Shown piece after piece: positions 2,912 through 33,050 of a stretch of DNA of 64,000 nt. Made by a program: the position numbers and the translations under genes. The stretch comes from Henricia sp. BOLD:AAB3569 (taxonomy: Eukaryota > Echinodermata > Asteroidea > Spinulosida > Echinasteridae): positions 62,001-126,000 of the forward strand of contig JBBELK010000620.1 in assembly GCA_037783545.1 (NCBI GenBank), given 5' to 3'. The notes beneath the pieces are model-generated. The model made no database searches and was not told the origin of the DNA. It saw only the letters and a list, made by a program, of their open reading frames with translations. The number at the start of each line of letters is the position of its first letter. Position 1 is the stretch's first letter.

Positions 2912-2934
2912 TAGATCATTTTCACGGTGCAGTT

Positions 2935-3060
2935 CTACAGTCTACAGTCCACAGTCTACAATTCTGGGGATATCATTGGTCGAGAGTCTACAGTCTACAG
3001 TCTACAGTCTACAATTCTGGGGATATCATTGGTCGAGAGTCTACAGTCTACAGTCTATCA
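2935..3060 (+). repeat. TCTACAG heptamer tract with 63-bp duplication and inverted CCAAT boxes
   Basis: This is a run of TCTACAG/TCCACAG heptamers interrupted twice by a unit containing ATTCTGGGGATATCATTGGTC. It is followed by TTTGATTGGCTGAGCG and an ATATGGCGGC word that resembles a YY1 site. Equivalent tracts lie at about 20449-20545 and, in a related form next to transposon 5' ends, at 4936-5011, 6311-6384 and 21948-22012. Confidence 0.65.
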
Positions 3061-4267: not shown

Positions 4268-4273
4268 ATTATA

Positions 4274-4436
4274 CGGGGAGAGCGCGAACGCAGTCCCCAC
4301 TATCAGAAATTGTACTCCCGAGTTCCCCACATTTGGGGGAATCGCAAGGGTCAATCCAGTCGAGTGTGCAATGACCGGACCTCACCTTGGGGGAACTGCC
4401 TACTTGATCGAAGTGTCCCCTGAGCCAGGTAAGTAT
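4274..4436 (-). ncRNA. U1: U1 spliceosomal snRNA, full length
   Basis: The minus strand starts ATACTTACCTGGC, the U1 5' end that pairs with 5' splice sites. It continues with a GATCA-containing stem-loop I, an ATTGCAC loop (the U1A site in stem-loop II), a CCCAAATGTGGGGAA stem-loop III, an Sm-like site AATTTCTGA and a terminal GACTGCGTTCGCGC stem-loop. Its length is 163 nt against about 164 nt for human U1. Upstream lies an octamer ATTTGCAT at about -123 to -130, and a 3' box lies downstream. It is identical over all 163 nt to the copy at 23618-23780, although the flanking DNA has diverged. This supports a functional, homogenised gene. Stem-loop I differs from the vertebrate loop. Confidence 0.95.
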
Positions 4437-4888: not shown

Positions 4889-4910
4889 CGAGTTCCCCAC
4901 ATTTGGGCGA
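4889..4910 (-). pseudogene. U1 fragment next to transposon 5' end
   Basis: Twenty-two bases from U1 stem-loop III (around GAGTTCCCCACATTTGG, one mismatch) end exactly where the transposon 5' sequence GAAGTGGTGTCTACGG begins. This is the same junction as at 6286/6287 and 21917/21918. Confidence 0.7.
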
Positions 4911-6006
4911 GAAGTGGTGTCTACGGTAGTGCAATTCCACAGTCTACAGTCTACGATATCTGTTCTCTCATTGGACGACTGTCTACAGTCTACAGTCTAC
5001 AGTCTACAGTTTCCGTGTTCTGATTGGCGGAGAATCCTCGCTTGTAGCGTGTGGGTCAGGGGTCACCCATACTCGTGCAGTGAAAGTGTATGGGATTCGG
5101 ATTACGCTATGCAGCTACTGTTTGTACACGTGCGTGTGCTCGGTATGCACAAAATGATGTGACGGACGAGTCTCAAAGTCATTCTTTTCGGCTATTTCCT
5201 TGGGATTGCAAAAGAAAATAAGTCGCCAAAAGGTAAATAGTAGTGTATAGATTGTTTTAATTTACTTTCAGGAGTTTTACTGTTACTTTGATCATGTTTT
5301 TTAATGCAAAATTGAGACCGCGTGTTAGGCTATCTGTAACAAGTTTTCTTCCGGTGTATGCCCAGCCGCGTGCCATTAAGTTCACCCAAATTAGAGTGAG
5401 ATGTAATTTATTTGTTCAATTGTTGATGAATACAAGACGCAAGGGCAATTTTATAAAGAATATGACACAACAGAAAATTCACTGTCATGACTGTGGAGTA
5501 TTTTTCACCTGAACAATGCAGACTGTAGTTTTTAAAAGTTTTTTTTTTGGACGGCGGATGATTGGGTTGAAAAAAAGCTTAGGCCTACCTTTTTGTTTAG
5601 GTGTAGCATGGGGACTATACCGTGAACATTATGGAAGCGAAATGAAATTTATGAAAGAAAAAATAATCTCGACAAACAGAGCAATCGTGTATTAACCGTT
5701 GTGCTATTTTGCAACACCCCAAACTGAACATATTCAGTGTACAGTTAAAGTCCTTGGAACTTTGGGGATTAGCTTGCTATAACACTACAGGAATATTGTA
5801 TTATTATGAATGAAAACAATAAGGTATAACTATAAGACCTACATTTTTATTGATGTAAGCAAAATGTTGTATTGACGGTGCTCTTATTATCGAGGTTTGA
5901 CTACTACTACTACTACCAGGCTACCCTGGTTAAATAAAACAGATAATAATATGGGGCTAAAATTATAAAATGTTTGTTTTCAGGAAACATGGCCTCGAGT
6001 AAGCTT
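4911..6006 (+). mobile_element. Truncated 5' copy of the U1-inserted transposon (copy P1)
   Basis: This copy is collinear with 6287-7726 of the full element but lacks the SINE found there. It contains the GTGTCTACGGTAGTGCA end, the heptamer tract, inverted CCAAT boxes, the presumed non-coding exon and donor, the intron, the TTTGTTTTCAG acceptor and ATGGCCTCGAGTAAGCTT (the first six codons). It then breaks off into U1 downstream spacer sequence. It is a dead fragment. Confidence 0.75.
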
Positions 6007-6219
6007 ATGCAGAATTATTTATTAAGACCCTGCCCATATTTTATGCGGTCTTGAAGCAGCCAACGTTTTGGGACACATTCTGCGTTGTTCAATCCGAGAC
6101 CAGGATTTGGGATCAATAGTTTCACGTCTTTTTAGCGTGTTCACAAGCGCAAGAACGACTACTCCTTCTAAGAACGTTTTTAGCTATTTCCATTTGATTC
6201 TGCTTTTTTATTTATTATA
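6007..6219. repeat. Short U1 downstream spacer
   Basis: Resembles 4020-4273 and 21580-21850 (for example GAAGCAGCCAACGTTTTGGGA and the run into TTTATTATACGGGG). It is the 3' flank of the disrupted U1 copy. Confidence 0.6.
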
Positions 6220-6286
6220 CGGGGAGAGCGCGAACGCAGTCCCCACTATCAGAAATTGTACTCCCGAGTTCCCCACATTTGGGGGA
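6220..6286 (-). pseudogene. U1 (disrupted): 3' half of U1 snRNA gene, interrupted by the transposon
   Basis: This piece covers U1 nucleotides from about 97 to the 3' end, including the Sm site and terminal stem-loop. It matches the intact copies except at the junction, where GGGGGA runs into foreign sequence CGTGGGGTCTACGG. Its 3' box region is still present, so it arose by DNA-level disruption rather than retroposition. The likely missing 5' half is at 17967-18062. Confidence 0.8.
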
Positions 6287-6314
6287 CGTGGGGTCTACGG
6301 TAGTGCAATTCCAC

Positions 6315-6410
6315 AGTCTACAGTCTACGGTTTCCGTTCTCTCATTGGACGACTGTCTACAGTCTACAGTCTACAGTCTACAGTTTCCGTGTTCTGATTG
6401 GCGGAGAATC
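6315..6410 (+). promoter_or_regulatory. Presumed transposase promoter: heptamers plus inverted CCAAT boxes
   Basis: A (CTACAGT)n tract lies between CTCATTGGACG (6341-6351) and TGATTGGCGG (about 6395-6404), both inverted CCAAT boxes. A plausible non-coding first exon follows and ends AAAAG at about 6643, before GTAAATAG. The first coding exon has a TTTGTTTTCAG acceptor five bases before its start codon, consistent with a 5' UTR intron. The same arrangement is kept in copies at 4.9 kb and 21.9 kb. Confidence 0.4.
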
Positions 6411-7140
6411 CTCGCTATTAGCATGTGGGTCAGGGGTCACCCATACTCGTGCAGTGAAAGTGTATGGGATTCGGATTACGCTATGCAACTACTGTATGCT
6501 AATGAGCTGTCAAGTTTGCCATTGATCGCTGTTTGTACATGTGCGTGCGCTCGGTATGCACAAAATGATGTGACGGACGGGTCTCAAAGTCATTCTTTTC
6601 GGCTATTTCCTTGGGGCTGCAGATGAAAATAAGTCGCCAAAAGGTAAATAGTAGTGTATAGATTGTTTTAGTTTACTTTCAGGAGTTTTACTGTTACTTT
6701 GATCATGTTTTTGTTAATGCAAAGTTGAGACCGCGTTACTGCTAGTGTTATGCTATCTGTAAAAAAAAAATTCTTCCAGTGTGTGCCCATTGGGGTAACC
6801 CAAATTAGAGTGAAATGTAATGTATTTGTTCAATTGTTAATGAATACAAGACGCAAGGGCAATTTTACAAAGAATATCACACAACTGAAAGTTCACTATC
6901 ATGACTGTAGAGTATTTTTCACCGGAACAATACAGACTAGTTTTTAAAAAAAAAAATTTGGATGGCAGAAAACTTGTTAACAATTTTTTTATTCGCCAGG
7001 GTTTTTTAGTTTTTAGGTGTAGGGCCTATACTGTGAACATTATGGAAGCAAAATTAAATTTATGAAAGAAAAAATAATCTTGAGAAACCGTGTTTTAACC
7101 GTTGTGCAACACCCCAAACTCAACATATTCAGTGTACATG

Positions 7141-7426
7141 GGGCGGTCGGGTTGGCGTACGGGTTCTTTCCTCGCCTTTCACCTCTGGCGTCCCGGGTTC
7201 GAATCCGGGGCGTGTATGTGGATTGGGTTTGCAGTCCCTACTTGACCGCGTGGGTTTTCCCCTGGGGCATTTCTCTGGGGGTTTTCCTCCCACTTCTAAA
7301 ACTGCAACTCCTTCTTCGTCATCTCAAGTTGATAATATAGTATAGTTAAAGCTAAAACCGTATAGTTGATGGCATAAAGGGCCTTAGTTGCCGAAAATGC
7401 CATAAAATATACAACAACAACAACAA
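7141..7426 (+). mobile_element. tRNA-derived SINE inserted in transposon 5' intron
   Basis: It has an A-box-like TGGCGTACGGG, a perfect B box GGTTCGAATCC, a tRNA-unrelated body beginning GTGTATGTGGATTGGGTTT and a (CAA)n tail. CAGTGTACATG occurs at 7130-7140 and 7427-7437 as an 11-bp target duplication. The equivalent intron in copies P1 and P3 lacks it. Relatives lie at about 46985-47110 (minus) and 61720-62110. Confidence 0.85.
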
Positions 7427-7708
7427 CAGTGTACATGCAGTCAAAGTCCTTGAAACTTTGGAGATTAGCTTGCTATATAAACTGGAATCTTGTATTATTA
7501 GGAATGAAAACAATGAAGCACAAGGAAATAAGACCTACATTTTTCTTGTTGTGAGCAAAATGTTGTACATGTAGGTATTGACAGTGCTCTTATTATCGAG
7601 GTTTGACTACTACTACTACTACTACTAGCTACTATGTTCACTAAAATTATGTTCACTAACATTTCAGTGAATGGGGCTAAAATTATTAAATGTTTGTTTT
7701 CAGGAAAC

Positions 7709-10700
7709 ATGGCCTCGAGTAAGCTTTTGCCGAAGCTCAGAATTAATGATGAGACAGTTCCACTAGAGCGGCGGCAGTGTGTACTGAGGTGTACTCGGGA
7801 CGCCGTTGAAATACAGAGAAGGAAGAAGGATAGGAACCCTAATCCTGCAGACAAAAACCTGTGGAATGAAAAAACAGCACTAGCCGAAGCAAGACGCAGA
7901 GCAATTGCACAGGAAGTCCCAGACCCAAGTGAACAGCAATGCATTGGCCAGTTGGTGTTAACATTTGGCAAATACACCCACTGCTCATTTGTCTGGCTGA
8001 TGGAAAATGATGTAGGCTATGTCAAATAGTAAGTATAAAATAATATATAAACGTCTATTTTGTAAAAATAAAAAAAGGTTTAAACCATAACTTTTAGAAC
8101 ATTATAATGCTATTGAATTGATGATTTTAAATTTCAATACGAAAAAGTAAATAGAAAAGTGCAAAAAATTGTTTTTCTAAAAATGGAACACTTGCAAAAA
8201 TGTAAATGTTGCAGGGAATTTTTGAATTATGACCAACTCAAACAATATTACTGAATTTTGGTTGATAGGCCGGGACAACTTTTATCTCCTTCATTCAAAA
8301 AGCATGAGCAACAAACTTTACTTTAATTTCTCACTGGCAATGTGGAGTGCATAATGACAAGTACATTTGCATAATGACAAGTACATTTGAATACTTACAA
8401 ATTAAATCATCCTTTTTTTGCAGTTTGGTTGACAAACACTGGAAAGAAACGCGGTACCTGCATCGAGAACAGAAAGCTGCCGTTCGTGATGGTTGGTTGA
8501 AAGACCATCTTCTGAGATACGCCTGCTCCTTCCACCAAGTGGCTTCACATCTCGAAAAGAATGTGGATGAGTGTCTATATCCCGTTGAAGAATTTCGAAG
8601 CAGAACCTTTTCTGAGATGTGGAGCCTATACAATAGGTACAAATCAACTTACAAGAGTAATCCCCAGTCTGCCTCTCCAGACATTGTTGACTTGTGTAAG
8701 AAGGCATATGGGTCAGTGAGACGCTGGCTTATGTTAAGTCCAAACGCCATCGCAAGTCAGCAGCTGAAGCGCTTTAGGCAGTACGTACTGGAGAAGGATG
8801 CCAAGGTGAGCAATTATCACCATATATTATTGCAAGTTTCAGAATTTGTTATATAATTTAAGTATATTCTTTTGTAATGGGGCTCCACTTTTTTTGTTAT
8901 TATATCACAGCATTACTTGAAATTAGTGTCAGTGTCATTTCCACTGGAGATAGAATTTCAAAATGTGAACCATTAATATTAACCATAACAAAATGTGGCT
9001 GCTAAATACAAACATACTGTAATACAGTTGTTTCCATTATTCAACTGAAAATCCATGTTTTAACAAAAAAACTGCAATATGGGACACTTGGAGTTTGAGC
9101 ACTTATTTTCCAAATACATGTAGTCACTTTGGTAAAAAGTAAGTAAGGAGTTTGACCATTCACCTTTTTAGGAATACATCACTTCCATTGAGTGATGTAT
9201 TGATAATCTTGGAAATTTAGGAGTGACTGTATGTACCAAAGTAAACCCTAAATTATTTCTTTCTATTTTTTTACAGTCCACTCCTGGCAGTGCAGAGGAA
9301 AGAACATCTACCATAGCCCAGGATGAGCGTAGCTTCTCAGACATCCCCGCCAAGAAGCGCAAGCTGGAGGCAGACTCTGTCGAGGGACCTGGTATGTGTT
9401 TGTTCTCCTAAAATATTTCAATATTTCATGGCCATGGCTACATACAAGAGAGAAATTAACTCCGTGAACCGTCTTTGGTTTCTTAAGATTTTAAAACAGT
9501 CCAACATTGTATATGATTTTATTTTAGAAAGGGGGAGGGTCGTGACATTATAAATACATGAGATGCCTGCAAAAAAACGATTTATATTTGACAATTTACA
9601 ATTTTCAGATTCACACCCATCAGCTTCAGCCTCTGTGTCACGCCCACCCCTATCAACCACTGCGTCTCCATCAGCCAGTGCATCACGCCCACCCCAGGCA
9701 GCCAGTGCATCACGCCCACCCCCATCAGCTACTGCGTCACACCCACTTCTGTCAGCCAGTGCGTCACGACCACCACCGTCAGCTAGTGTGTCACGACCAC
9801 CACCGTCAGCTAGTGTGTCACGCCCATCCCCGTCAGCTAGGGTGTCACGCCCGCCTGTAGCAGCCAGTGTGTCACGCCCACCACTGGCCCTGTCGTCCAG
9901 TACGTCACGCCCGCCCCCATCAGCTAGTGTGTCACGCCCTCCTGTGCCAGCTAGTGTGTCACGCCCTCCCCGGTTGTCCACTGCGTCACGCCCTCCCCTA
10001 TCAGCCAGTGCATCACGACCATCAGCATCAGCTAGTGTTTCACATCCACCCCCATCGTTCAGTGAGTCACGCCCACCCCCATCGGCCAGTGAGCCACACC
10101 CATCCCCGTCAGCCAGTGAGCCGCAACTAATCAAGTCAGACGATTCACAGTTGTGTCACTTGATGGGACCAGATGATGCGCATACAGAAATCTCTTTTGA
10201 AGGATGGTGTAAACCATGGGAGAATGATAGTGGCAATTTAGGGATCCCAGCAGCAGACCGTAAATGGCTGAGGAATGATACAGAGAGGGGTATGTTTAGT
10301 CCCATCCAGGTTTACAAGGATGTGAAAGGGGATTATCGCCGACGACATGTCCTGAAAACAGATCGGATGTGGTTCTACCCTCCAGAGTGCCCTGGAGTTG
10401 TACATGGTACCCTGCCCGTGCCGGAGCATTTTTTTAGGTCAAGATTATTTTTCTGGCGACCAGTCGGTGTTTGGAATTACAGCATTCGATGTCCTCGCCC
10501 TGATTGTCCTGGTCGTGATCGAGACAAAGTTTTCTTGTATCGCTGTGGGTACCATGCCACGGTCCGACAGATCTGCGATGTTTCTGGTTGGTACACCATG
10601 CTCACCGAAGTCCTCAGCTGTGGTCCGTGTAACAAGGCAGCGAAAAAAGGTGTTGAGAAGACAGCAAAGTGGGGGAGGTTTTTGGCCTGGGACATGGAGA

Positions 10701-13700
10701 TAATATCACAGCTGAGTGAGGCCCATCAGGCAATATTTCCAGCTGTTCTGACAACACGGTAAGTGGTTTCAGTGCAACTGTTATTTGTTCTTGCTGGAAA
10801 TAACACAAACCCAATCAAAGGTAGGACCAGGGTGGTGAATTGGATTAAAGGAAAGTCTATACAAATAATATACTCATTTAAAAAAAAGTTTGGATAAGTT
10901 TGGAATATTAAAATTTTGCCCTCAAATGTTTCATTGGGAGACAAATGCTAGTGTAATATTCCTGCACATGAATTTGCATGTGCACTACTGAAAACTGAAG
11001 AAAAAAAATAATGTTTACATTTTTGCAAATGTCCTGCTGCTCAGTGTCATTCAAAAAAAGGGGAAACAAACATAATAATACTATTGTAGTATCACCAGCT
11101 TTTCAATCCCCTATATCAGGGTTCCTTGTGATTACTAAAAAATTGTTTGTTATATTTAATGTCTAATTTCGTTTTAACAGGCGGGGTGTAGATAAGAAGG
11201 TTGTGCAGCTGTTGAGGGACAGAACGCAGGGAAACACCATGGCCAAAGTCTGGCGTCAAATCCAGGAGAACCATTGCCAGGAATTCCTAAACGGGAAGGA
11301 CATGTACACCACACTTCTGTACACACTCACACAACCAGGAGGGATAGTTGCTGCCTTTGGCCACAACTTTCGACCACCACCAAAGAGGCGTGAGCTCCCC
11401 TCACCACGACTACTCCGGCACGCCTTCCTGCTAGAAGAGGCGGACCACGTGCTTGACTATCGCACGCAGATTCTGTCAACATTTGGCAGTGTTCTCAAAT
11501 TCGACTCCACAAAAAAGGTATACCTCAACATTTTCAGTAGGGGACCTGCACTTCACAAAGCGTTCCTTTGCAAAGAGTGATAATAAGTGTTGATGTCTCA
11601 ATCTTGGGACAATTCCACAGAAAGTAAGTTGTTCAAGTAAATTAATTAATGTGATGAAAATGTTTATCTTTGCAATCAGATCTGTAAAAAGTTGTCTGGT
11701 TCATGTCGAGGCACAGCGGAGTGGTTTACCAGCGTTGCCAACGAAAAAAGTCAGATTTCGACCTTCGTGATGACATGCGAGGAATCGACCGAGAAGCTTT
11801 CCCTCATGGCGGAAGGTCTCATGACTAGGTATGAGAAGGCTGGCCAGTTGCCTCCGGAGGTCATGTACGTGGATCGTGGATGCTGTAGAGGTCATGGTCC
11901 CACAGCTGTTGAGACGCTGTTCCACAATTGGGTCTCTTCAGGGATGGTCGTCAGACTTGATATATGGCATTGGATGCACCGGTTTGATGGTGCCGTCCGC
12001 ACCGACAGTCATCCCAAGTTTGCTATGTTCAAGTCTGGCCTCTCAGGAGCTGTATTTGCTTACAACAAGGGAGACCTTGACCACCTCATCGAGGCAGTTC
12101 GGGCTGGCAAACCTGACAAGTTGACCTCCCTGTCAGATGAGGAAGTGTTCCAGTACCACATTTCCAAGGAGGTCCTCAAGCACCATGTACGGCGGGTTAC
12201 TCTTGGTGCCCAGGAAACGTCCACCCGGGTGAGCAACATGATCGATGTGCTGAAAGGGGAAGCGGGTCTTGATGAGAACGGCACTCCGCTGTTCAAAACC
12301 CCTGATGCCATTGATGATGTGTGGGCCATGCAACAGAAACACCTGGAGTGCATACAAGACCCACCCGGGATGGACATGTACCGTATCGCCAAGCTGACCA
12401 CCAAGAATGATGTTCAGGTGCCTTACTATGTGTGCCTGCGTGGGAACAACAGCCTTGAAGGGTTTCATTCCCACCTTCCCAGTATGATACCAGGTATGCT
12501 TACATTGAATCAGAAGCATTTAAAAACAAATATTATAAATCATATTCTGTTAAAAGTTACATTTTATTTCAGAACTTTCAGCACATATACTTTGAACTTA
12601 TGTAAGTATCTGCCACATGATTCAGGAGGTGACCTTTTGACCTTTAATGACAAACACCTCTGTTTAGCACGTATTTAGGAGCCATGTTCAATATTTTTCA
12701 GGTCCACACTGTGATGCCCGCCCATTTCAGGTCTACCTCTTGAGTGGGATTGCCCGGTGGAACGCTGACCGTGAGGCCAATGCGGTGTTTGGCAGGCAGG
12801 GTCGGCACAACAGGATCTACTCTGGACCTCTGATCCATCGTCTCAACACGAGATGCCAGGCGCTTTTTGGAAGTGAAGAGGTCGAAGAGGAGAACTTCCG
12901 ACTGCCTGCCAAACCCAGCGATGAGCTGCTTGGCCTAGAGTACCTCTTCATGCAGAGCACGGGCAGTTCATCAGAGGTCAAGATCGCCTCTTCAGCATCT
13001 CTGCTTGCCGAAGGCCCTGCTGAGGAGGATGAGGTGGTGACAGCCGAGGCTGCAGCAGAGGTTCTTGATGATGGTTACAACAGTGACGGTGCAGACGGGC
13101 CCACTGATGTCAAGCCTGCTCACATTGTTTTGACAACAAGTGAAACGACTGAGGCTCTTGACCCTGCCTGCGTAAGTATTCATGTTAGAGGAGCACTTTG
13201 TCAGAGGTATATGGTTTGAATCCAGATGAAGACCATATGATATGTCTTGCACTGTGTTTATGTAGATATGCGAGTACTACAAATTGCAGTGCATTTAAAC
13301 AATGCATAGTTCCGACCTGTCAATCAAGCCGAACCCGCGACCAATCACAACAGAGGTAGCAGATGGCGCCCACAAAGGTCAAAGTGATGCAAACAATCCG
13401 CGATGTTCTGCCCATACAGTTTGTATGTTGTATGCGCCAGTGACCGGGTGAATTTTGGTTTCAATGTTGGGCGATTCGCTGTTCAAAGGTAGGAAAGCGC
13501 ATTTTTATGAAATATATGTCATCCCTGCATTACTAGCCCTTCGCTCAGTGTGTGCTACGGTAACTGTCGACCTCAAAACATAATTACCTTTGAGTTTTCT
13601 CCAATGAATCTGTGCTTTCCATGCCGAGTCCCGTTGCTTTGTACGTAGTCTCGCCATTTTTTTGCGATGGCTTGTGAGCACATAGCAACAATATCCAAGG

Positions 13701-15391
13701 GGGCGGGGTTAACTGGGCAATCTCGGAACTATGCATTGGAAAGAAGTTAATTCTTTGGCATGCATTATTGTTTTTGGCAAGATTGTTTGACCAAAATGCA
13801 AAAGAATTTATCCACATTAAAATTGACCAATTGATTGGCTGTGAGACAGTCCAAAACCGTGATCTTACAAATGGAAAATTATTTTTATTAACAGGAAGAC
13901 GTCTGTGGCCAAAACCCACTGCCTGGCTACGGAAAGGTAGAGAAGCTGAGTGAGATTTTTGCAGGCATCGCTTCAGATGAGGGGAAACTTGCCTTGTCTG
14001 CTCAGACACGCAGTGCGGTGGTAGAGGCATGGGGACAACTACACGACCATGACAAAAGTCCAACAAAATTCCACTCCCGATACAAGTCATACTGGGGCAA
14101 CACACTATACGGAAGGACCAAAGGTGACCCAGAAGAGGCAGGTATCACCCAAAGAGTAAAATTTCGAAACCGGTATGCCCCAGCACAGTTTATAGATATT
14201 AATAAAAACAGGTTAATGTACTGTGTTGTCAAACACATTTGGCTGCGGTGTGATGACACCATTGCATCCCCAGAAAAAACGAAAATCACAAAAATGTACG
14301 AGCGACTCCAGCAGAGAGTGATGGTCGAAGACCCAGTCCTCAGTAAGCTAGGTATTCCCCTTCCCAAAATAAATACTAAATGTGTACGGGAATTTATTAG
14401 GAGGCAGGAGGCACTTGCCAACATCAGTTCAACAAGCCAAGGAACCACCAGCATTATTCGGCGATGCCAAAGTGTATCTGCCCAACAACTTCCTGAGGCT
14501 CCAGAACTCCCATCACAAAGAGAACCTACAAGCTGGCCGGAAACATCCTATGCAGACATACCTTGCATGGCTGGGCAGAAAGTGACAAAATCTCGTCAAA
14601 ACATCGTGCAGCCTCTGCCTGGTCTCAAATCGTCGGGTTCCGTCCCAGTTCCAGTGGTTTGTACTCGTGGTCCTGCGCTGTCGGACCTTACTCTCCCTGT
14701 GAGTCTTTCAGCTGGCCCCTCATCAGCAGTTTCATCTGCTTCACTTGGTCCTGCTGCTACCTCCTTGGCCTCTTCTCTCTCTGCAGTCTCTTCATCTGGT
14801 CCCTCATCAATTTCGTTGGTTTCCACTCGTTTAGCAGGCCATTCCCCTGGCCCCTCGTCAGTTGCGGTGGTCTCTCATGGTCGTGTAGGCCCTTCCCCTG
14901 GCCCCTCATCAGTGCCGATGGGCCCTTCCCCTGGCCCCTCATCAGTTGAAATGGGCCCTCCCCCTGGCCCCTCATCAGTGCTGATGGGCCCTTCCCCTGG
15001 CCCCTCATCAGTGCCAATGGGCCCTTCCCCTGGCCCCTCGTCTTTGCCGATGGGCCCTTCTCCTGGTCCCTCATCAGTACCTATGGTTTCGCCTGGTTTT
15101 GCCTCATCAGTTTCAGGTCCTTTACCAGTCACCACACCTAGTTGGGCAAGATCTACAGAGTATTCACGACTGCAAAAGGCAAGGAAACATGCAACATTCT
15201 TGGTTCAAAAACCAAAAGAAACAAAGATTCCGTTGTGTGTACTCTGTGGAAAAGCCATGCATGGACATCAAAAATACCGAAAAAAGACATGGTGTGAAGA
15301 TACAAAGCAGTCTACATCAAAAGGACTTCAAAACAGAGTATTCGTGAACTTTGACCAATTTACGGCTGTGGTTGATGAACTCTTGAAGTAA
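7709..15391 (+). CDS. Dada-like DDE transposase, eight exons, about 1,694 aa, apparently intact
   Basis: Coding exons are 7709-8028, 8424-8805, 9277-9391, 9609-10758, 11181-11517, 11680-12493, 12702-13171 and 13895-15391. All introns are GT-AG and every phase matches, with no stop or frameshift. In order, the protein has an FGKY...WLMENDVGYVKY motif (about 95-107), a Ser/Pro-rich repeat, a cysteine cluster (CPRPDC, YRCGYH, SCGPC), then FPAVLTT and a core with FDSTKK (D764), YVDRGCC (D833), LDIWHWM (D862xxH865) and NNSLEGFH (E1028). A second proline/serine repeat follows, then a terminal zinc-finger-like CVLCGK...WCED. A D-D-E set with DxxH between is typical of the MuDR/hAT/P/Kolobok/Dada group. 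The domain order recalls animal proteins with the region called DUF6729; that is memory, not a search. The start is the first ATG after the acceptor and recurs in P1 and P3. Cutting of U1 DNA is inferred from the insertion context. Confidence 0.8.
9609..10130 (+). repeat. In-frame minisatellite coding Ser/Pro/Arg-rich repeats
   Basis: Imperfect 27-30-bp units of the form CCATCAGCTAGTGTGTCACG encode SASVSRPPP-type repeats inside exon 4 of the transposase. Reading frame is kept throughout, so length variation is tolerated. It is probably a disordered linker. Confidence 0.8.
14700..15110 (+). repeat. In-frame minisatellite coding GPSPGPSSVPM repeats
   Basis: 33-bp units (GGCCCTTCCCCTGGCCCCTC core) are repeated with few changes in the last transposase exon. 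They encode GPSPGPSSVPM-like units before the C-terminal zinc-finger-like segment. This is probably a flexible linker. Confidence 0.8.
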
Positions 15392-16829
15392 GTATTAGCA
15401 GTGTTGTGGTCGCGTACTTTTCGAGTACTCAAAGGAAATGTCCAATATAAGTTATGATTACACAGACATTGTCAAACTCGCTGTACATTAAGAACTGGAC
15501 TTCAGTTATACTTGGTTTGAAGGTAATCACCCCAGTTTGACTTTAACAAATACTTTGAGTCTGTCAAATGCTGAAATACTCGGTAACGGAGCCTTAATGT
15601 GGTTGTCAGGTGCCTAGCTTCTTTCATTAGAGCACCCTTGTAAAATGTGTGCCCACAAACATTTATATAAATTTATCTTCAATTGTCACGGAATCATTGC
15701 ATTGGGAAGTTTAAACTAATTCCGTCTTTCATTTGAGTGAGGTATTCTGGTATATGGGACATTGGAAATCCTGTAGGCCTATGAGCTTACTCGACCAGAC
15801 AAAAGAAAGACTTTCACACTTTGTTTTTATATTTGTGCAATCAGTAAGGAGTTAAAGACAAGGAGCAGTGTTACTCTTGCCTGAATCATGAACATGCACT
15901 TTAAAGTGTTGATGTTTAAAATGAGTCAAAAATAACGGCGATGTTTAAATAAACAGAAAACTTTACATCACGTTTTGAAATTGGATAACAAATGGTTTAT
16001 AGATTGTGTGGATTGCTACACTGTGTGCTATTAGCTAACTTTGGTGTATCGTTTCACAAAAGTGCAACTTATTAACATTGTTTGGGCCAATGAAAGCCAA
16101 GAAATATTTTGTGACTAAATTTACATGAACACAATTAGAAATACGTAGGTTGGTAGTCAGCATTTTCTCAATCATCATAATTACGTACAAATGTACATGT
16201 GTGCAACAGGAGTTTTCACACTCACATGTACTGACTTTGAGAGTTTCCTGTCTTATTGACGGACATTAATTAAACTATTCTGCTGGTCTTTCAGGATATG
16301 AGATACTGTAAGGTTTTTATTCGTACAAATCCGACTAATAGGAAATTACATTTACAGTGCCAAAGTATCAAAGTATTAGGTTGTTTTCTGTATGGTACAT
16401 GTTTTTTTAAACAACGGACATGCAGATGACTCTGAAATTATATTTATGTTGGAAGTTGAAGTTCATCTTAGACTTGTGTTTTAGCAAAGAAATTAGCTTT
16501 TTCATTTACAAGGTAATGATGGTGTGGACTTAAAAAAGGTTGTTTGGAGTAACTTTATGTACTTTTTTACTTGACTGCACTAAATCTCAGGTTTTGTTTT
16601 TTAAATTGTATTTTAAACACTCGTGTCATAGATTGTTGCCAGAACATTGCCTTATTGGGTCCACTTGTATTGTTTGCAATAATTGTTTTGTTTTTTTACA
16701 TAAATTACAATGCAGACATTTTATGCTGTATGAAACATGAGTACTGTAGTTACAACATTGTGTGCACTAAACTATTTTTTTTTCAATAATCTGTCGCACA
16801 AAATGTCTTATTTACTTGTTTTTTATTAA
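15392..16829. other. Transposon 3' non-coding region
   Basis: This is AT-rich sequence without a convincing exon. AATAAA at 15948-15953 could serve as the polyadenylation signal of the transposase transcript. The short ORFs around 16540-16790 look random. Confidence 0.45.
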
Positions 16830-16965
16830 GGACTCGTCGGTCACCGCAGTGACCGACTAGTCCAAGGCAGGCCGACTACCAGTTGTCGGACGCAAGTACC
16901 GTGGGGGTTCGAGCCCCCCTGCCCGTACATGAAACACAAGACAACACGAACAAACAAACAAACAT
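16830..16965 (+). repeat. Hairpin followed by tRNA-like sequence (possible SINE)
   Basis: A 15-bp imperfect hairpin (GGACTCGTCGGTCAC, loop CGCA, then its complement) precedes GGCAGG...CCTGCC pairing ends, a CCGAC/GTCGG arm and a T-arm-like GGGGGTTCGAGCCCCC. An (AACA)n tail follows. There is no canonical anticodon arm, so this is not a normal tRNA gene. Confidence 0.4.
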
Positions 16966-17094
16966 AATGGTGTCAGGGCCATTCCAGGTCGTCAATTTTT
17001 CCAAAAATCATGGTCAATGCTGGTCCAGGTCAATTAATCAGGTGGGTGGTGGATTTTTGAAATGTATTGTACATTGTAGCAACAAACACTGACA

Positions 17095-17345
17095 AGTCTT
17101 TCTTAAAACCCAGTGTACAAATTTCCAATATACGCTTGTAACTGGGACGGCCTAAAATGTTACTCAAGAGTCCGTCCCGGTTACAAGCGTATTTTGGAAA
17201 TTTGTAAACAGGGTTTTTAGAAAGGCATGTTTTTGGGCCAAAGTTATCTCTTCAGAACAACTAAAACTTTTGAGACCAGACAAAGGTATTTTCTGGAAAT
17301 ATGGTCTGTGTTGCTAAAATGCCCCCTTTACTGTGGAAAGACCCT
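17095..17345. repeat. Partial foldback element related to 48113-48600
   Basis: The arms CCAATATACGCTTGTAACTG and CAGTTACAAGCG-type sequence mirror each other around about 17157. The right part (GTTATCTCTTCAGAACAACT, then GGTCTGTGTTGC and ending TTTACTGTGGAAAGACCC) matches the right arm of the complete copy at 48113-48600. Confidence 0.6.
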
Positions 17346-17966
17346 GATCCTTTTCCATTGTTTTTGGTCATGTTTTTATGATGTCAAATATTAAGAAAGG
17401 TCTGGTGTGTTTGCTGTCTCCCAACATAAGTTTTTATGACATTCCTTGGAAAATTTTGTTTGTTTTGAAAATGTACACAGGTTTCAGGAACAGTAATACT
17501 ATGCCAAAGTCTATGGCGATTTGATCTCAGGAATTCACATCGATTCATGTGTGTTTCATTTCTGTCCCGAGTCTCTTTCTTTGCCAGTTGAAGTTTTTCC
17601 TCTTAGTTTAGTTTTCTACTTCTTTTGTTTTATTCAAACTGCACAAACCACAAGCTTGTGCAGTTTAAATAAAACGAAAGATTTCGAAAACTAAAATTAA
17701 TACTAAAGTGATTCGAAAAAGCCAATTTGCTAAGGTTTTCTAATGCAAATAAGTCGATATAGCAATATTCAATGCTCCAGATACCCCGTTTGTTGAGAAA
17801 ACAACACTTTACTACATGCAAATCATTGGAAAACTTTTAATCCCTCCTCTTTTGCATAATTCATGATATTGGATTTACCTCATAAATAATTAACAACTAC
17901 TCCGACGTCAGATGATTGTCCACCAATCAGCTTCCAGGAAAATGCACTAACATGTGGTCGACGCCC

Positions 17967-18062
17967 AATCGCAAGGGTCAATCCAGTCGAGTGTGCAATG
18001 ACCGGACCTCACCTTGGGGAACTGCCTACTTGATCGAAGTGTCCCCTGAGCCAGGTAAGTAT
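17967..18062 (-). pseudogene. U1 (disrupted): 5' half of U1 snRNA gene, interrupted by the transposon
   Basis: This piece covers U1 nucleotides 1 to about 97: ATACTTACCTGGC, stem-loop I, the ATTGCAC loop and into stem-loop III. It then breaks into transposon sequence (GACGCCC). One G is missing compared with the intact copies. The octamer at 18185-18192 and other promoter sequence remain, so a truncated transcript reading into the transposon is possible. Confidence 0.8.
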
Positions 18063-19030
18063 GCTTCAATCAACGTGCAAACCCTAGGTAGTATGGAATA
18101 GTATACGTTGCAGATATGGTTTCTGCGCCCAAGATTTAGTGGACTTTTGCCCGTATATACTGCGCATGTGTAGTTCACTCTAATATGCAAATTTAATAGA
18201 CTTGAGTAAGTCCACTGATCCAGAGCGGGACATTTCGTTGATTGAGGGCGCTCTAACACTTCACCGGTGACCGCTAGAAGTTTTACTTGGGGTGGCGCTA
18301 TTTGTCATCACCGTTCGCCACCATTATTTTGAAGGGACCTTCCAAAGATCGGTCAACCAGCAAATAACACAAATTTATCAGACAGAATTTAATATTTTTG
18401 ATCAAGTAACTTGAAATAACTGGCCCTTATTTGCTCATAACTGAATAAGTTATTGGCACAAACTCAGCGTTAAAGGCACAGGCTCGTCAGCAATGCGCGC
18501 CCGCCAAATTCGTGCTCGAAACACGCAGCTCCATGCCTTTGCTATGGAGCTGCGTATTGCGTGGCACACATTTGGCGGGCGCGCACTGCTGACGAGCCGA
18601 TTTCGTGAAGACTTACAAAAAAACCATCTGATAAATGGCATACACTGTACTGTTTATCTGTTTCTCTTTTCTCAAAATACAATTTGCTAGCATGATTCCA
18701 GTGTGGTTTTCTTGTTCCTGATTTGTCAATAATACAAACAAAATCTTTTTATGGATTTAAAAGCTCCACCCCTGTGTCATGCATATGCATACAATTTGCA
18801 TGATACACTATGACAAATTGTGATTGGTCAACCGTACACAAATTACCCCAGTTTAGCTGATTCGCATAATCACCTGAAGAATGATGTAATTTGTAAGTGA
18901 CACTAAACGTAACTTATAACTAAAAATGTACTGGACTAATAACACTGCATGTAAACAAATTTTAAAAATTAGTCAAAAAGGGCTGAAAATGACAATTTAC
19001 TTTGCTTCATTTTATATAAGTATAACAATA
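18063..19030. repeat. U1 upstream spacer, copy in disrupted locus
   Basis: Collinear with about 23781-25610, including TAGTGGACTTTTG, the octamer, GTGACCGCTAGAA and TTTGATCAAGTAACTTGAAA. The differences are mostly insertions: a palindromic MITE here at about 18474, and an 889-bp element in the other copy at 24070. Confidence 0.7.
18471..18600. mobile_element. TTAA-type palindromic MITE
   Basis: A hairpin beginning TTAAAGGCACAGGCTCGTCA, with arms meeting near 18540 at CCATGCCTTTGC. The right end stops at GACGAGCC, so the copy is slightly truncated. The same family is at 25756-25888 and 37957-38089. Confidence 0.75.
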
Positions 19031-20040: not shown

Positions 20041-21850
20041 TAGGTCAGCCAGTAAGTAAGTGCACTGAGACACAACCCCCTCCTCTTCCCCCACTTCGCC
20101 CCGCCCCCATAATATCCCGGGCTGAGATCAATGAAAAAATTAAAATTTAGGAGTGGAAAAACGTTCTGTACATCCCAAATTTAGCAATGAAAAGTATCCT
20201 CTCAATTCTGAAATATGAAAAAAGGTACCAAAAATAGAAGAAAAATCGAAATAAAAAAAATCGCGCAAATAGACGCCAGAGCAGACACTTCCGCAAAGTA
20301 CACGTTTTCCGTCGGGCCATTAGTCAGAGACCATCGTATTTACTTCTGATGTGGGTTATGAAATGTATTGTGTAGGTCAGGGTACTGCTCAACTTCTTCC
20401 GTGAAATGTTCACCACTAGAGGGCGGTAGATCATTTTCACGGTGCAGTGCTACAGTCTACAGTCTACAGTCCACAGTGTACAGTCCACAGTCTACAATTC
20501 TGGGGATATCATTGGTCGAGAGTCTACAGTCTACAGTCTACACTATTGCACGCTCGCCTTTGATTGGCTGAGCGTCTACAATATGGCAACAATGAATGTC
20601 ACGAAGGGTGCACACAAAATCGGGCCCCCATAGAAACCAATGCTAAATGCCCCATTTTCAAAAATCATTTAAAAATATTCACAACTCTCTCAGCATCTCA
20701 GGACGACAACCAAAATACTCATTGAAGTCTCGTCTTTTCAATTCTGTTCAATTTTATTTGGGTTATCCTTCGCTTTTATTCTCTGAATTCCACTTAAAAC
20801 AAAACTACCCATGCAAGAGTGAAAATTGCCAAACAAACCAGCGTCCATTTTGGAACAAAGGCACATACACAACTGGGAAAAATACATGGCCACATTCTAT
20901 AGGAGCTACATTGTCCAAAATTATTATAGTTGGAAGAAAAAAATACCACACATCACGGCGATGGCTATATTCTACACTAGACCACAATCGTTCAGCTCGC
21001 AACTCCTTCCAAAGAAGAATTTGAGGGCATACAAAATATTCATGAGCTCGGCGCACGGATCTCTCATATGCCTATACTATAGTGGAGGAAGGAAACAACT
21101 TCCTCCATGGACCAACACAAACATTGTCATTGTATTGCATGCAAGTTTATTCTGTCCAAATTTAATATATGACAAAACGTGGCCCAAAGAGTACCTGTAA
21201 TTCTCAGAATAGCCTGCCTTCTTGGAATGCAGACGTTTTCTTCATCCCAAAACCTTTTCATCGTCTCACTTTTCTGGCGAATTTCACGTCCCTATGTATA
21301 TCTTGTAGGCTGCGGCAACCGTTGTGCCAACATGACCTTTTTCTGAATGTTTGTAGGCATATATCTAGCTCGAAATGTACCAAACAAACAAACTTAACAT
21401 TTTATTCTAGTTACTTTTTTATACCGTTGCCAATTGTTTTTAGACGATTCTGACAAATTTAGAAATGGTTACAATTAAGTTTTCCAAAGAAGAGAAGTCT
21501 TCAGCGGTATAACGGCATACGTACCTTTATGTATACAGTCGTTATACAGTAATTCTAGTTCCAACTACAGCCCTGTCCGGCCGAATCCATTGGTTATGTG
21601 GTCTGAAGCAGCCAACGTTTTGGGACATTCTGCGTTGTTGAAGCCGATATGTTTGGATGACTACTTTTTCACGTCTTCTTAGCGTGTAGTGTTCACAAGC
21701 ATGGCTGCCTTATAGGTCACACATTCCTCAGCAACTACATGTATGTAACGAGCGACTGACCACACGTTCGTGGACTACTCTTTATTAGAGCATTCAGTAT
21801 GAGACGATTTTTGCGATTGTTTATTTGATTCTACTTTTTGATTTATTATA
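20041..21850. repeat. U1 downstream spacer, copy 2
   Basis: Collinear with 2524-4273. It includes the CTCF-like motif (20413-20426), the heptamer tract (20449-20545) and the block of about 450 bp at 20605-21070. It leads directly into a U1 3' half at 21851. Confidence 0.75.
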
Positions 21851-21917
21851 CGGCGAGAGCGCGAACGCAGTCCCCACTATCATAAATTGTACTGCCGAGA
21901 TCCCCACATTTGGCGGA
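21851..21917 (-). pseudogene. U1 3' half, mutated
   Basis: Matches U1 from about nucleotide 97 to the 3' end, with several substitutions (CGGCGAG, CATAAATT, ACTGCCGAGA) that disturb the terminal stem and the Sm region. It abuts transposon 5' sequence at the same U1 position as the other copies. Confidence 0.75.
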
Positions 21918-22257
21918 GAAGTGGTGTCTAGTACGGTAGTGCAATTCCACAGTCTACGATATCCGTTCTCTCATTGGACGACTGTCTACAGTCTACAGTC
22001 TACAGTCTACAGTTTCCGTGTTCTGATTGGCGGAGAATCCTCGCTTGTAGCATGTGGGTCAGGGGTCACCCATACTCGTGCAGTGAAAGTGTATGGGATT
22101 CGGATTACGCTATGCAGCTAGTACTGTATGCTGTTTGTACACGTTGGTGCGCTCGGTTGCACAAAATAATGTGACTGACGAGTCTCAAAGTCATTTTTTT
22201 CGGCTATTTCTTTTGGGCTGCAGATAAAAATAAGTCGCCAAAAGGTAAATAGTAGTG

Positions 22258-22562
22258 AGAACAGTCAACATGAACACGATATCTCAAATTCAGTCTGTGC
22301 ACTGGTAGTCTGGTAATCGACCGCGCATTGCCATTCCTTTGTACACAAGACTTGAATTTGTACACATCGGCTGTCATTCCAGACCTTCTTTTTTACTGCA
22401 ATTGTAGGCTGAATCTTCATCGTGGCTTGTTATTTCCCTGAAGGACCTGCGTAGTGGTTATAATGCCTGACAAGGTTTGGGTAAGTCCCAGGGGGAATTA
22501 GTGTGTCACGGGGAGAAAAATTACACATTTGTTTTGTGATATCGTGTTCATGTTTACTGTTC
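22258..22562. mobile_element. TIR element related to the 1681-2422 foldback
   Basis: The ends GAACAGTCAACATGAACACG and CGTGTTCATGTTTACTGTTC form inverted repeats of about 25 bp. The interior shares TTATTTCCCTGAAGGACCTG and GGGGGAATTAGTGTGTCACG with the larger foldback. Confidence 0.7.
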
Positions 22563-22869
22563 TAGCCCTACATGAAATAACCACACGATAAAGGGCTAAG
22601 GTAACATTTAATAGCTAGCTTAGGCCTAACTTCAAAACTTGTTAAACAAAATTTTATTCGCCAGGGTTTATAGTTTTAAGGTGTAGGGCCTATACTGTGA
22701 ACATTATGGAAACAAAATGAAATTTATGAAAGACAAAATAATCTCGAGAAACAGAGCAATCGTGTTTTAACCGTTGTGCTATTTTGCAACACCCAAAACT
22801 CAACATATTCAGTGTACAGTCAAAGTCCTTGGAACTTTGGATATTAGCTTGCTATAATTACAGGAATCT

Positions 22870-23035
22870 TTTATTTATTTATTAACCAAATCCAACAGCG
22901 ATCAAGTCGCCAATTACAGGTTGGTATTTAAATAAATGACATGTACATAAATATATTAAATAAACCATGTTACAATATATAACAAATAAATACATTACAG
23001 GAAAAAGCAAATTGAATAATTTGGTATTATTAGGA
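22870..23035 (-). mobile_element. LINE 3'-end fragment
   Basis: The minus strand ends GGCGACTTGATCGCTGTTGG...GGTTAATAAATAAATAAAAG, a 3' terminus with an (AATA)n-like tail. TATTATTAGGAATG is repeated at its right edge. No reverse transcriptase sequence is present. The class is uncertain. Confidence 0.45.
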
Positions 23036-23130
23036 ATGTATTATTAGGAATGAAAACAATGAAGCACAAGGAAGTAAGACCTACATTTTTCTTGTAGTGC
23101 TCTTATTATCGAGGTTTGACTACTACTATA

Positions 23131-23381
23131 TGGGTCTTTCTATAAATTAGGGGTCCAAAAGTGTGACATTTGGTGTCCCCCGTTACACCTAATATGTGTT
23201 ATTTTTCGTACAAAAATCATTAAAATGGCTTTTAAACCATTTTGTATGAATTGTACTTTATGTACTCACTCTTTCAGATGAAAATTTTTTTTTAAATGTG
23301 TCCTGAATTTGCAAAAACAAGATGTAAAATGTAACGGGGGACACCAAAGCTGGACCCCCTTATTTATAGAAAGACCCATAT
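23131..23381. mobile_element. TIR MITE with GGGTCTTTC ends
   Basis: TATGGGTCTTTCTATAAATT at the left is mirrored by AATTTATAGAAAGACCCATA-like sequence at the right (one gap). Inner arms GGTGTCCCCCGTTACA and TAACGGGGGACACC also pair. The matching site in the full transposon (about 7630) is empty. Confidence 0.75.
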
Positions 23382-23593
23382 GTTCACTAAAATTATGTTC
23401 ACTAACATTTCAGTGAATGGGCTAAAATTATTAAATGTTTGTTTTCAGGAAACATGGCCTCGAGTAAACTTTTGCCGAAGCTCAGAATTAAAGATGAGAC
23501 AGTACATGGACTACTCTCTATTAGAGCATTCAGTACATGGACTACTCTCTATTAGAGCATTCAGTACGGCACGTTTTTGGCGATTGATTATTC

Positions 23594-23610: not shown

Positions 23611-23617
23611 TATTATA

Positions 23618-23780
23618 CGGGGAGAGCGCGAACGCAGTCCCCACTATCAGAAATTGTACTCCCGAGTTCCCCACATTTGGGGGAATCGCAAGGGTCAATC
23701 CAGTCGAGTGTGCAATGACCGGACCTCACCTTGGGGGAACTGCCTACTTGATCGAAGTGTCCCCTGAGCCAGGTAAGTAT
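23618..23780 (-). ncRNA. U1: U1 spliceosomal snRNA, full length, second intact copy
   Basis: Identical over all 163 nt to 4274-4436, with the 5' splice-site-pairing end ATACTTACCTG, the ATTGCAC loop, the Sm-like site and the terminal stem-loop. The octamer ATTTGCAT at 23903-23910 and the 3' box at 23594-23610 are in place. U1 snRNP defines 5' splice sites by base pairing. Perfect identity despite spacer divergence suggests selection or gene conversion among the tandem copies. Confidence 0.95.
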
Positions 23781-31705: not shown

Positions 31706-32225
31706 TTTGAATGCCAACATTAAACTTGCATGAGTCCTTCGCATCTTTGGCGCGCGCGTACACGAAAACAAGATTAGACCGTGCATTTGGCAGTGCGCCC
31801 TCATGTGACTCTCTCCTGCACATTGCTTTTCTTTTCTGAGCATGCGGTAAGATATAAAGGCTTAAAACGCTTCGAGTCTCAAGATCCGACTGCTCTGTGC
31901 CTCGCATATTGTCACTGTCATCCCAAGATATCATCATCTGCATTTTTTCATCAACACAGAGAGAGGACTCCACCATGCATCGTCTTCTTTAAGGTCACAT
32001 GACGGCAATGGCATGCGTCCCACATCCTATGGATGTACACTGCACAAATACAAACAGTGCGCCGTGTGTGTGAGCTTGCAACACGGGCGGGGACGAAAAG
32101 AGAGATGTATGCATGATTTGTGTGGGAAATCCTCGCCTAAAGCGGGAGAAACCAGGATAAATTTAGACAGGGGAGGCATCCGATGAGCTGGCAGTCCCTC
32201 CCCAAGCTGGCATTTTCGGGGACGA
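31706..32225. promoter_or_regulatory. Head-to-head promoter interval between TFAM and PDE5
   Basis: Only 520 bp separate the two start codons, which point away from each other, so both promoters must lie here or in short 5' UTRs. No TATA box stands out. The TFAM start sits in AAAATGGCAGCC, a YY1-like word common at housekeeping gene starts. GGCGCGCGCG at about 31749 and GAGCATGCGG at about 31838 (half an NRF-1-like site) are the other GC-rich words. Shared regulation is inferred from the geometry. Confidence 0.55.
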
Positions 32226-33050
32226 ATGGCCTTTTCGCCCGGCTTTGACCGGGACGAACGGGCCTCTAATCTGCAGCAGACGGCGCGACCAGCAGCGCAC
32301 CCGGCCACCACGATCATGGGGCCGCTACCGGTACCGGGGAACGGCGACCCGGTGCCCGATAACAACGGCGATCGGAGCAACGAGTACGATCGCATGGAGA
32401 AATGGCTGGATTCTCACCCGGAGTTCTCTCACGAATACTTCGCTCGTAAGGCCACCCGAAGCATGATCGATGGATGGTACATAGCTAGGGCTGTCTCCCA
32501 GTCTGCTATACCTCCTGTTGCCGAGTCCCCACACTCGCCAAGTAGCTCCTCAGGCAGTAATACCCCCGTTAGGAAGGTTTCCGCCTCGGAATTTGAGGTG
32601 CAGGGCAGTGGTGGTTCACTTGGTCGAATGGTCTCAACGGTCGACGGAGCTCCGTGTTTCCTTGGAACGAGCCATCTCCACCTCCAGGGAAATTCAAGGT
32701 CGTCTCCGACTCGATCACGAAAGTCAATCAGTGAGCTGAAACAGCTCGATGACCGAGCGGTTCTGATGGAATTAGTCAAAGATATTGCAAACGATCTCGG
32801 TCTAAACTCACTCTGCCACAAAATCCTCCAGAACGTCTTAATTTTGACCAAGGCGGACCGTGGCTCATTGTTTTTGGTTTACGGCAAAGGAACAGAGACG
32901 TGCTATCTAGGTTCCAAGCTCTTTGATGTAACGAGTGAATCTACGGTAGAACTAGCGGGAAAAGAGGAAGTGCGTGTGAGTTGGGGCAAAGGAATCATAG
33001 GCTATGTCGCCAAGACGGGAGAGCCAGTTAATATTGCCAATGCATACGAG
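32226..33050 (+). CDS. PDE5: PDE5 coding exon 1 (275 codons)
   Basis: It runs from the ATG to ANAYE before GTAGGT and contains the disordered N-terminus, the phosphosite RKVS(119)A and the first half of GAF-A. It ends in phase 0. Confidence 0.9.

Follow-up and report, generated by a model that had tools for sequence, protein, structure and literature searches.

A U1 small nuclear RNA gene split by a coding DNA transposon, probably of the U1-targeting Dada type

Results

The stretch analysed here, 64,000 nucleotides of contig JBBELK010000620.1 (positions 62,001 to 126,000; hereafter the window), carries a U1 small nuclear RNA (snRNA) gene that is split in two by a DNA element with a long transposase-like gene. 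Below we describe the U1 genes of the window, the inserted element (copy B), two truncated copies of the same element (A and C) that also lie next to U1 sequence, and the reading of this element as a probable Dada-type transposon. Coordinates are collected in Table 1.

Table 1. Features of the split U1 gene, the inserted element and their surroundings, in window positions.
Feature	Position	Strand	Details
Intact U1 snRNA gene I1	4273-4436	-	blastn 164/164; Rfam U1
Copy A, truncated left part of element	4914-6014	+	blastn; adjoins U1 nt 100-118 remnant at 4889-4907
3' flank of split U1	6024-6218
Split U1, 3' piece	6219-6286	-	nt 97-164; blastn 68/68
Dada-U1-type DNA transposon (probable), copy B	6287-17966	+	left end 6286/6287, right end 17966; junctions from comparison with intact U1
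Left sub-terminal repeat GTGCAAT	6303-6309	+	17 nt from U1 nt 98 in copy B
SINE-like insertion in copy B	7139-7426	+	CAA-rich tail; flanked by 11-bp repeat CAGTGTACATG; window 7130-7437
Transposase gene model	7709-15391	+	exons 7709-8028, 8424-8805, 9277-9391, 9609-10758, 11181-11517, 11680-12493, 12702-13171, 13895-15391
Catalytic motifs	11503-12459	+	D764 (11503), D833 (11872), DxxH at 862 (11959), E1028 (12457)
Right sub-terminal repeat AATGCAC	17941-17947	+	19 nt from target word AATCGC
Split U1, 5' piece	17967-18062	-	nt 1-97, one C missing, ends in GCGATT; blastn
5' flank of split U1	18063-18248
Copy C, truncated left part of element	21932-23503	+	several pieces with unmatched gaps; blastn; adjoins U1 nt 101-164 at 21850-21913
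Intact U1 snRNA gene I2	23617-23780	-	identical to I1; blastn 164/164; Rfam U1

One of five U1 units is split

When the window's own full U1 sequence of 164 nucleotides (nt) was compared with the window by blastn, six matches were obtained, all on the minus strand. Two are intact genes, each of which scores 143.2 bits with the Rfam U1 model (RF00003, gathering score 69.5), two are the halves of the split gene, and two are the remnants that adjoin copies A (19/19, E 3e-5) and C (60/64). The window therefore holds five U1 units or remnants, two of them intact and three broken at the same place. An earlier note on this DNA, made from the sequence alone, had proposed that the two separated pieces are one U1 gene cut near nt 97. 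Both proposals held up: the pieces are complementary (nt 1-97 and 97-164, with one shared nucleotide and one C missing), and comparison with intact U1 places the junction at nt 97/98. The 5' piece is 98.97% identical to the query over 97 columns, the lost base being one C of a C run, and nt 97 of the 3' piece may in fact be the first base of the element, matching by chance. The note's limits for the 5' piece (17967-18062) stand, while its start for the 3' piece, 6220, should be 6219. The split gene it described is real, but it is just one of the five units or remnants, and copies A and C hold remnants of the same element too.

Against the whole RF00003 model the two pieces of the split gene score 64.6 and 38.0 bits (E 9.6e-14 and 4.6e-6), values that fall under the gathering score because half genes were forced through a whole model; the piece at 21850 is also under it (28.6 bits, E 0.0024). 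Over the 186 nt of its 5' flank, the split gene is identical to I2 at 183 positions and to I1 at 174, and the near-identity of this flank to those of the intact units indicates that it was a proper U1 unit.

The insert carries an open transposase gene

Copy B is 11,680 bp long (about 11.4 kb without a short interspersed element (SINE)-like insertion that is not in copies A and C) and is oriented opposite to U1. Within this insert of about 11.7 kb the earlier note had reported an intact transposase-like gene, and we could assemble one as an uninterrupted model of eight exons, with seven GT-AG introns, 1694 amino acids (aa) and zero internal stops. The predicted protein has a D-D-E triad, called by eye at the level of motifs, with a DxxH between the second D and the E. 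It also contains an N-terminal CCCC motif (C567, C572, C610 and C613) and, close to the C terminus, a CCHC motif (C1644, C1647, H1652 or H1654, and C1663). Exons 4 and 8 contain proline/serine-rich tandem repeats.

Among known domains, Pfam assigned DUF6729 to the region around the CCCC motif, with an E value of 9.9e-44 on the joined region, and our literature search found no paper that names this domain. Matches to zf-TFIIIC (E 0.015), RsgI_N and DUF2498 among the seven exon open reading frames (ORFs) scanned were below the Pfam cut-offs and were set aside. NCBIfam returned no family for any of five exon ORFs at E 0.1, and a sequence search of the PDB gave a single match that is without meaning (E 0.93).

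Two repeat families also occur in or near the element. Palindromic repeats of one family are found in its 3' noncoding part (17092-17230) and at 38838-38968, 44183-44315 and 48307-48470. Tandem repeats of a 7-bp TCTACAG-type unit lie near the left ends of the three copies (4981-5010, 6355-6384 and 21984-22013), and such repeats, with a related longer unit, are present at two further places (2934-3057 and 20445-20542).

The element meets U1 at a fixed position and carries sub-terminal repeats found in U1

Read along the RNA strand, an intact U1 gene has CTTGCGATT followed by CCCCCAAATG. The 5' piece of the split gene terminates in CTTGCGATT and the element follows directly, and the 3' piece opens at CCCCC without a second GCGATT. 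This word, which corresponds to U1 nt 92-97 and is preceded by CTT, is thus kept at the right junction only, and the duplication of 6-7 bp that the earlier note had predicted was not found. In place of GCGATT, copy B has CCACGT at its left junction, and A and C share ACTTCT. These six bases may belong to the end of the element, as is suggested by the spacing in copy A, which at 19 nt equals that on the right. The note had also suggested looking for a fixed U1 junction among copies, and here A, B and C share a single position of contact with U1, the exact-match junctions of A and C (U1 nt 100 and nt 101) being at most 3 nt off that of copy B.

No terminal inverted repeats were recognised in the element. 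A short candidate, GGGCG, at the left of copy A and the right of copy B, was dropped since it is missing on the left of B and C and its distances differ by 5. Near the ends there are instead sub-terminal repeats. GTGCAAT is exact in all three left ends, at distances to U1 nt 98 of 17 (B), 19 (A) and 22 (C), these being 22, 24 and 27 less five bases, and its counterpart stands 19 nt from the target word in the right end. The repeat is mirrored in U1, which has its own ATTGCAC 20 nt from GCGATT. Over both strands of the window GTGCAAT was found 16 times against 13.2 expected, a number reached by 24 of 100 shuffles; the plus strand accounts for 12 of these, among them the 3 left ends and 3 sites within U1 sequence. 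The rate at which a plus-strand position starts GTGCAAT is 0.00019, and for ATTGCAC with at most one mismatch it is 0.0020. As the word is not enriched across the window, it is its placement that counts.

These junctions bear on whether the element was inserted at all. Two half U1 units could have come to lie around unrelated DNA by rearrangement of the U1 array or by an assembly join, and the truncated copies A and C show that deletions and joins have happened in this array; the unduplicated target word also speaks for such a history. However, the halves sum to one U1, the sub-terminal repeats are nearly equidistant from both junctions, and three copies contact U1 at the same position, which makes a rearrangement or join a most improbable source of the split gene.

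Copies A and C are truncated versions of the same element

Copies A and C both stop in the first coding exon and close together, at points corresponding to positions 7734 and 7758 of copy B, and their truncated ends (6014 and 23503) join different points of the 3' flanks of neighbouring U1 units. The right end of the element (17700-17966) occurs once in the window, and tblastn with the gene model gave no further coding copy there. Across the leftmost 330 bp the three copies are 94-96% identical, and in the next part inward 76-86%.

How the copies arose is relevant to a second alternative, in which an element of another DDE superfamily (for example KDZ/Zisupton, MuDR, hAT or Kolobok) hit U1 once and its U1 flank was then copied by duplication of the array. 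In the inward parts identity is not far above the 75% (142/189) seen between B and C in the 3' flanks of U1, and A and C have ACTTCT in common at the left junction; both observations make array duplication of a single insertion possible for A and C. A target duplication of the size known from Dada is absent, and DUF6729 is not named as a Dada domain, so that these features too would fit a different superfamily. Against this stand the published Dada-U1 site together with the sub-terminal repeat, the presence of both zinc-finger motifs and a spacing between the first two catalytic residues of 69, compared with 68 in a known Dada protein. In addition, copy B lies between near-pristine U1 halves (68/68, and 97 columns with one gap), whereas the U1 piece of copy C has decayed (60/64). 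Taken together, we regard an origin in another superfamily as quite unlikely.

The element ends of B and C agree at 307 of 328 positions, a significant excess over their U1 flanks (Fisher P 5e-9); we did not rely on this contrast for the independence of B and C, since the next part of the element is nearer the flank value. A bootstrap of whether C is nearer to I1 than to B came out even (986/2000). From these comparisons A, B and C cannot be proven to be independent insertions, because the high identity is confined to the leftmost 330 bp and falls inward towards the value of the B and C flanks. Copy B is likely the youngest, as its U1 halves are nearly pristine and the U1 piece of C is decayed, though upkeep by gene conversion from intact U1 could instead account for the state of the B halves.

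Other features of the window

Outside the element, Pfam was run on five of the ten ORFs listed, and the two with matches are GAF-domain exons (32187-33113 and 45828-46244). The first of these is PDE5-like, with 47 of 96 residues identical to PDE5 chain 9lss over part of the GAF domain (PDB). The window's U1 is identical at 122 of 164 positions to human U1, and both identities suggest that the host is a non-vertebrate animal.

Two tandem arrays of a 78-bp unit contain a stretch, TAGCTCAGCTGGTAGAGC, that resembles the 5' half of a transfer RNA (tRNA): one of 7 copies at 34057-34607 (+) and one of 18.7 copies at 50553-52051 (-). The Rfam tRNA model scored 33.9 bits at 41078-41150 and 33.7 bits at 50513-50580 (cut-off 29), and ARAGORN detected no tRNA in the window. 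A long near-perfect palindrome at 1990-2111 matches the Rfam models mir-5014, mir-63 and MIR6438 below their cut-offs, and is more likely a foldback repeat.

Discussion

Few DNA transposons insert at specific sites, and among those of animals the Dada group has been described best. The anatomy, target and motifs of the insert, on which its membership in this group is based, make it very probable that copy B is an autonomous cut-and-paste transposon of the Dada type that uses U1 as its target (Dada-U1-like), and probably one that still has its coding capacity. The earlier note's interpretation as a U1-targeting Dada member is thereby supported by the target position, the sub-terminal repeat, the order and spacing of the motifs, the open gene model and the junction common to three copies. 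Dada elements in general are described as encoding a DDE transposase from a spliced gene, with fingers of the CCCC and CCHC types (PMC3706591). As expected of Dada, the insert interrupts a small RNA gene that is present in several copies, two U1 genes of the window being intact.

The insertion point is homologous to that of zebrafish Dada-U1. The target-site duplication (TSD) of the zebrafish elements is GCGAAT or GCGAAC, following CT (PMC3706591), and here the element is inserted directly after U1 GCGA(A/T)(T/C). For Dada-U1, PMC8869645 gives the target ATTCGCAGGGGTC, written on the strand that does not carry U1, and the window sequence on the matching strand is AATCGCAAGGGTC. In both zebrafish families GTGCAAT/ATTGCAC is located near the ends and ATTGCAC is found in U1 at an equal distance (PMC3706591).

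Several observations weigh against this assignment. The first is that GCGATT is missing at all three left junctions, leaving no 6-bp target duplication; this absence lowers the claim to Dada membership. A junction at nt 98 common to the three copies needs one substitution each in the CCCCC of U1 (CGCCC in A, CCGCC in C), and the right repeat, AATGCAC, has one mismatch to ATTGCAC in the sole right end. At the protein level, exon borders were placed by eye, and DUF6729, the sole Pfam family above cut-off in the seven exon ORFs (in two of them), is not named as Dada. The second C of the C-terminal finger is followed by H at +5 or +7, versus +10 in Dada-U6_DR. A search for relatives of the transposase core in viral_contigs gave three pattern matches, none of which was confirmed, and an AlphaFold model of exon 6 alone (single sequence, 271 aa without the first D) was, with a mean predicted local distance difference test (pLDDT) score of 38.5, too poor to show an RNase H-like catalytic fold. 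Finally, the element is about 0.4-0.7 kb beyond the maximum of the Dada length range of 4666-10979 bp given in PMC3706591 (2013).

With respect to the missing duplication, the Dada-tA target word is reported to be replaceable on one side only, which was read as a sign that TSDs may not arise in every Dada transposition (PMC8869645), and therefore a TSD should not be demanded of every copy. For the element described here, the one-sided word could reflect insertion without target duplication as a property of its family, or a replaced word of the kind published for Dada-tA. It could also be that exchange between units of the U1 array removed one duplicate from an ancestral insertion, which then spread through the array.

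In the mechanism that we propose, the transposase would excise the element and rejoin it beside GCGATT (U1 nt 92-97), in stem-loop III of the U1 gene and in reverse orientation relative to U1. The transposase, perhaps through its zinc fingers, is predicted to recognise U1 sequence that mimics the left end of the element (about 20 nt, then GTGCAAT). The triad would supply catalysis, and the element may be active today. Dada targeting has the logic that multicopy target genes tolerate the loss of one, and the loss of one U1 gene would be tolerated here because U1 is multicopy.

At its most modest, copy B is a further Dada-U1-type element, of interest mainly for its host and its one-sided target word. 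A bolder proposal, which we consider doubtful at present, is that it represents a U1-specific Dada lineage outside ray-finned fish, in a non-vertebrate animal, that integrates without a TSD and leaves GCGATT on one side. If this were true, the targeting of U1 by Dada would either be an ancient trait or have spread horizontally, and DDE strand transfer would have a geometry unlike that of other Dada elements. The passages of PMC3706591 and PMC8869645 that treat Dada-U1 describe it from ray-finned fish only, and it is also mentioned in PMC4640811. Our literature search found no Dada-U1 lineage outside these fish; Repbase was not covered by it, and a relative recorded only there is possible. That a host which is apparently not a vertebrate has a coding copy at the U1 nucleotide used by the fish elements, with their 7-bp end signal, suggests conservation of the target choice over long spans, and this copy offers a distant comparison for finding the parts of the protein that read the U1 site. 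Such a comparison is relevant to the idea, put forward in PMC3706591, that Dada could serve for targeted DNA insertion.

Comparison with known Dada elements

The protein can be compared with Dada-U6_DR through the motif positions printed for the latter. The CCCC motif is spaced 5/38/3 here and 5/35/3 in Dada-U6_DR, and the distance from its last C to the first catalytic D is 151 versus 135. Between the first and second D there are 69 versus 68 residues, between the second D and the E 195 versus 176, with DxxH after the second D, and from the E to the C-terminal finger 616 versus 548. In that finger the last H and last C are separated by 9 in both proteins, and 31 residues here, versus 21 in Dada-U6_DR, follow it to the protein end. 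All Dada elements except those of Perkinsus are stated to carry introns (PMC3706591), and the introns of our model are in agreement with this.

In its target the element is closest to Dada-U1A_DR and Dada-U1B_DR of zebrafish (Kojima and Jurka 2013, PMC3706591). Like these it is inserted right after U1 GCGA(A/T)(T/C), has sub-terminal GTGCAAT/ATTGCAC mirrored in U1 and has no recognised terminal inverted repeats, which Dada-U1 is described as lacking (PMC3706591). It differs from them in its apparently non-vertebrate host, its one-sided target word and the single mismatch in its right repeat. With the Dada-U6 elements of fish, Daphnia, Capitella and oyster (PMC3706591) it shares the protein plan, a similar motif spacing and a related target word, CCCCTGCGAA being common to the U6 and U1 targets; those elements differ in their U6 target, their sub-terminal repeat CAGAGAAGA and the presence of a 6-bp TSD. 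A parallel to its junctions is provided by Dada-tA and Dada-tY (PMC8869645), for which insertions are reported where another sequence stands in the place of the target word, in some cases at one end only. Unlike our element these have tRNA targets, and their word is swapped for a known other word, whereas here CCACGT (B) or ACTTCT (A and C) stands in its place.

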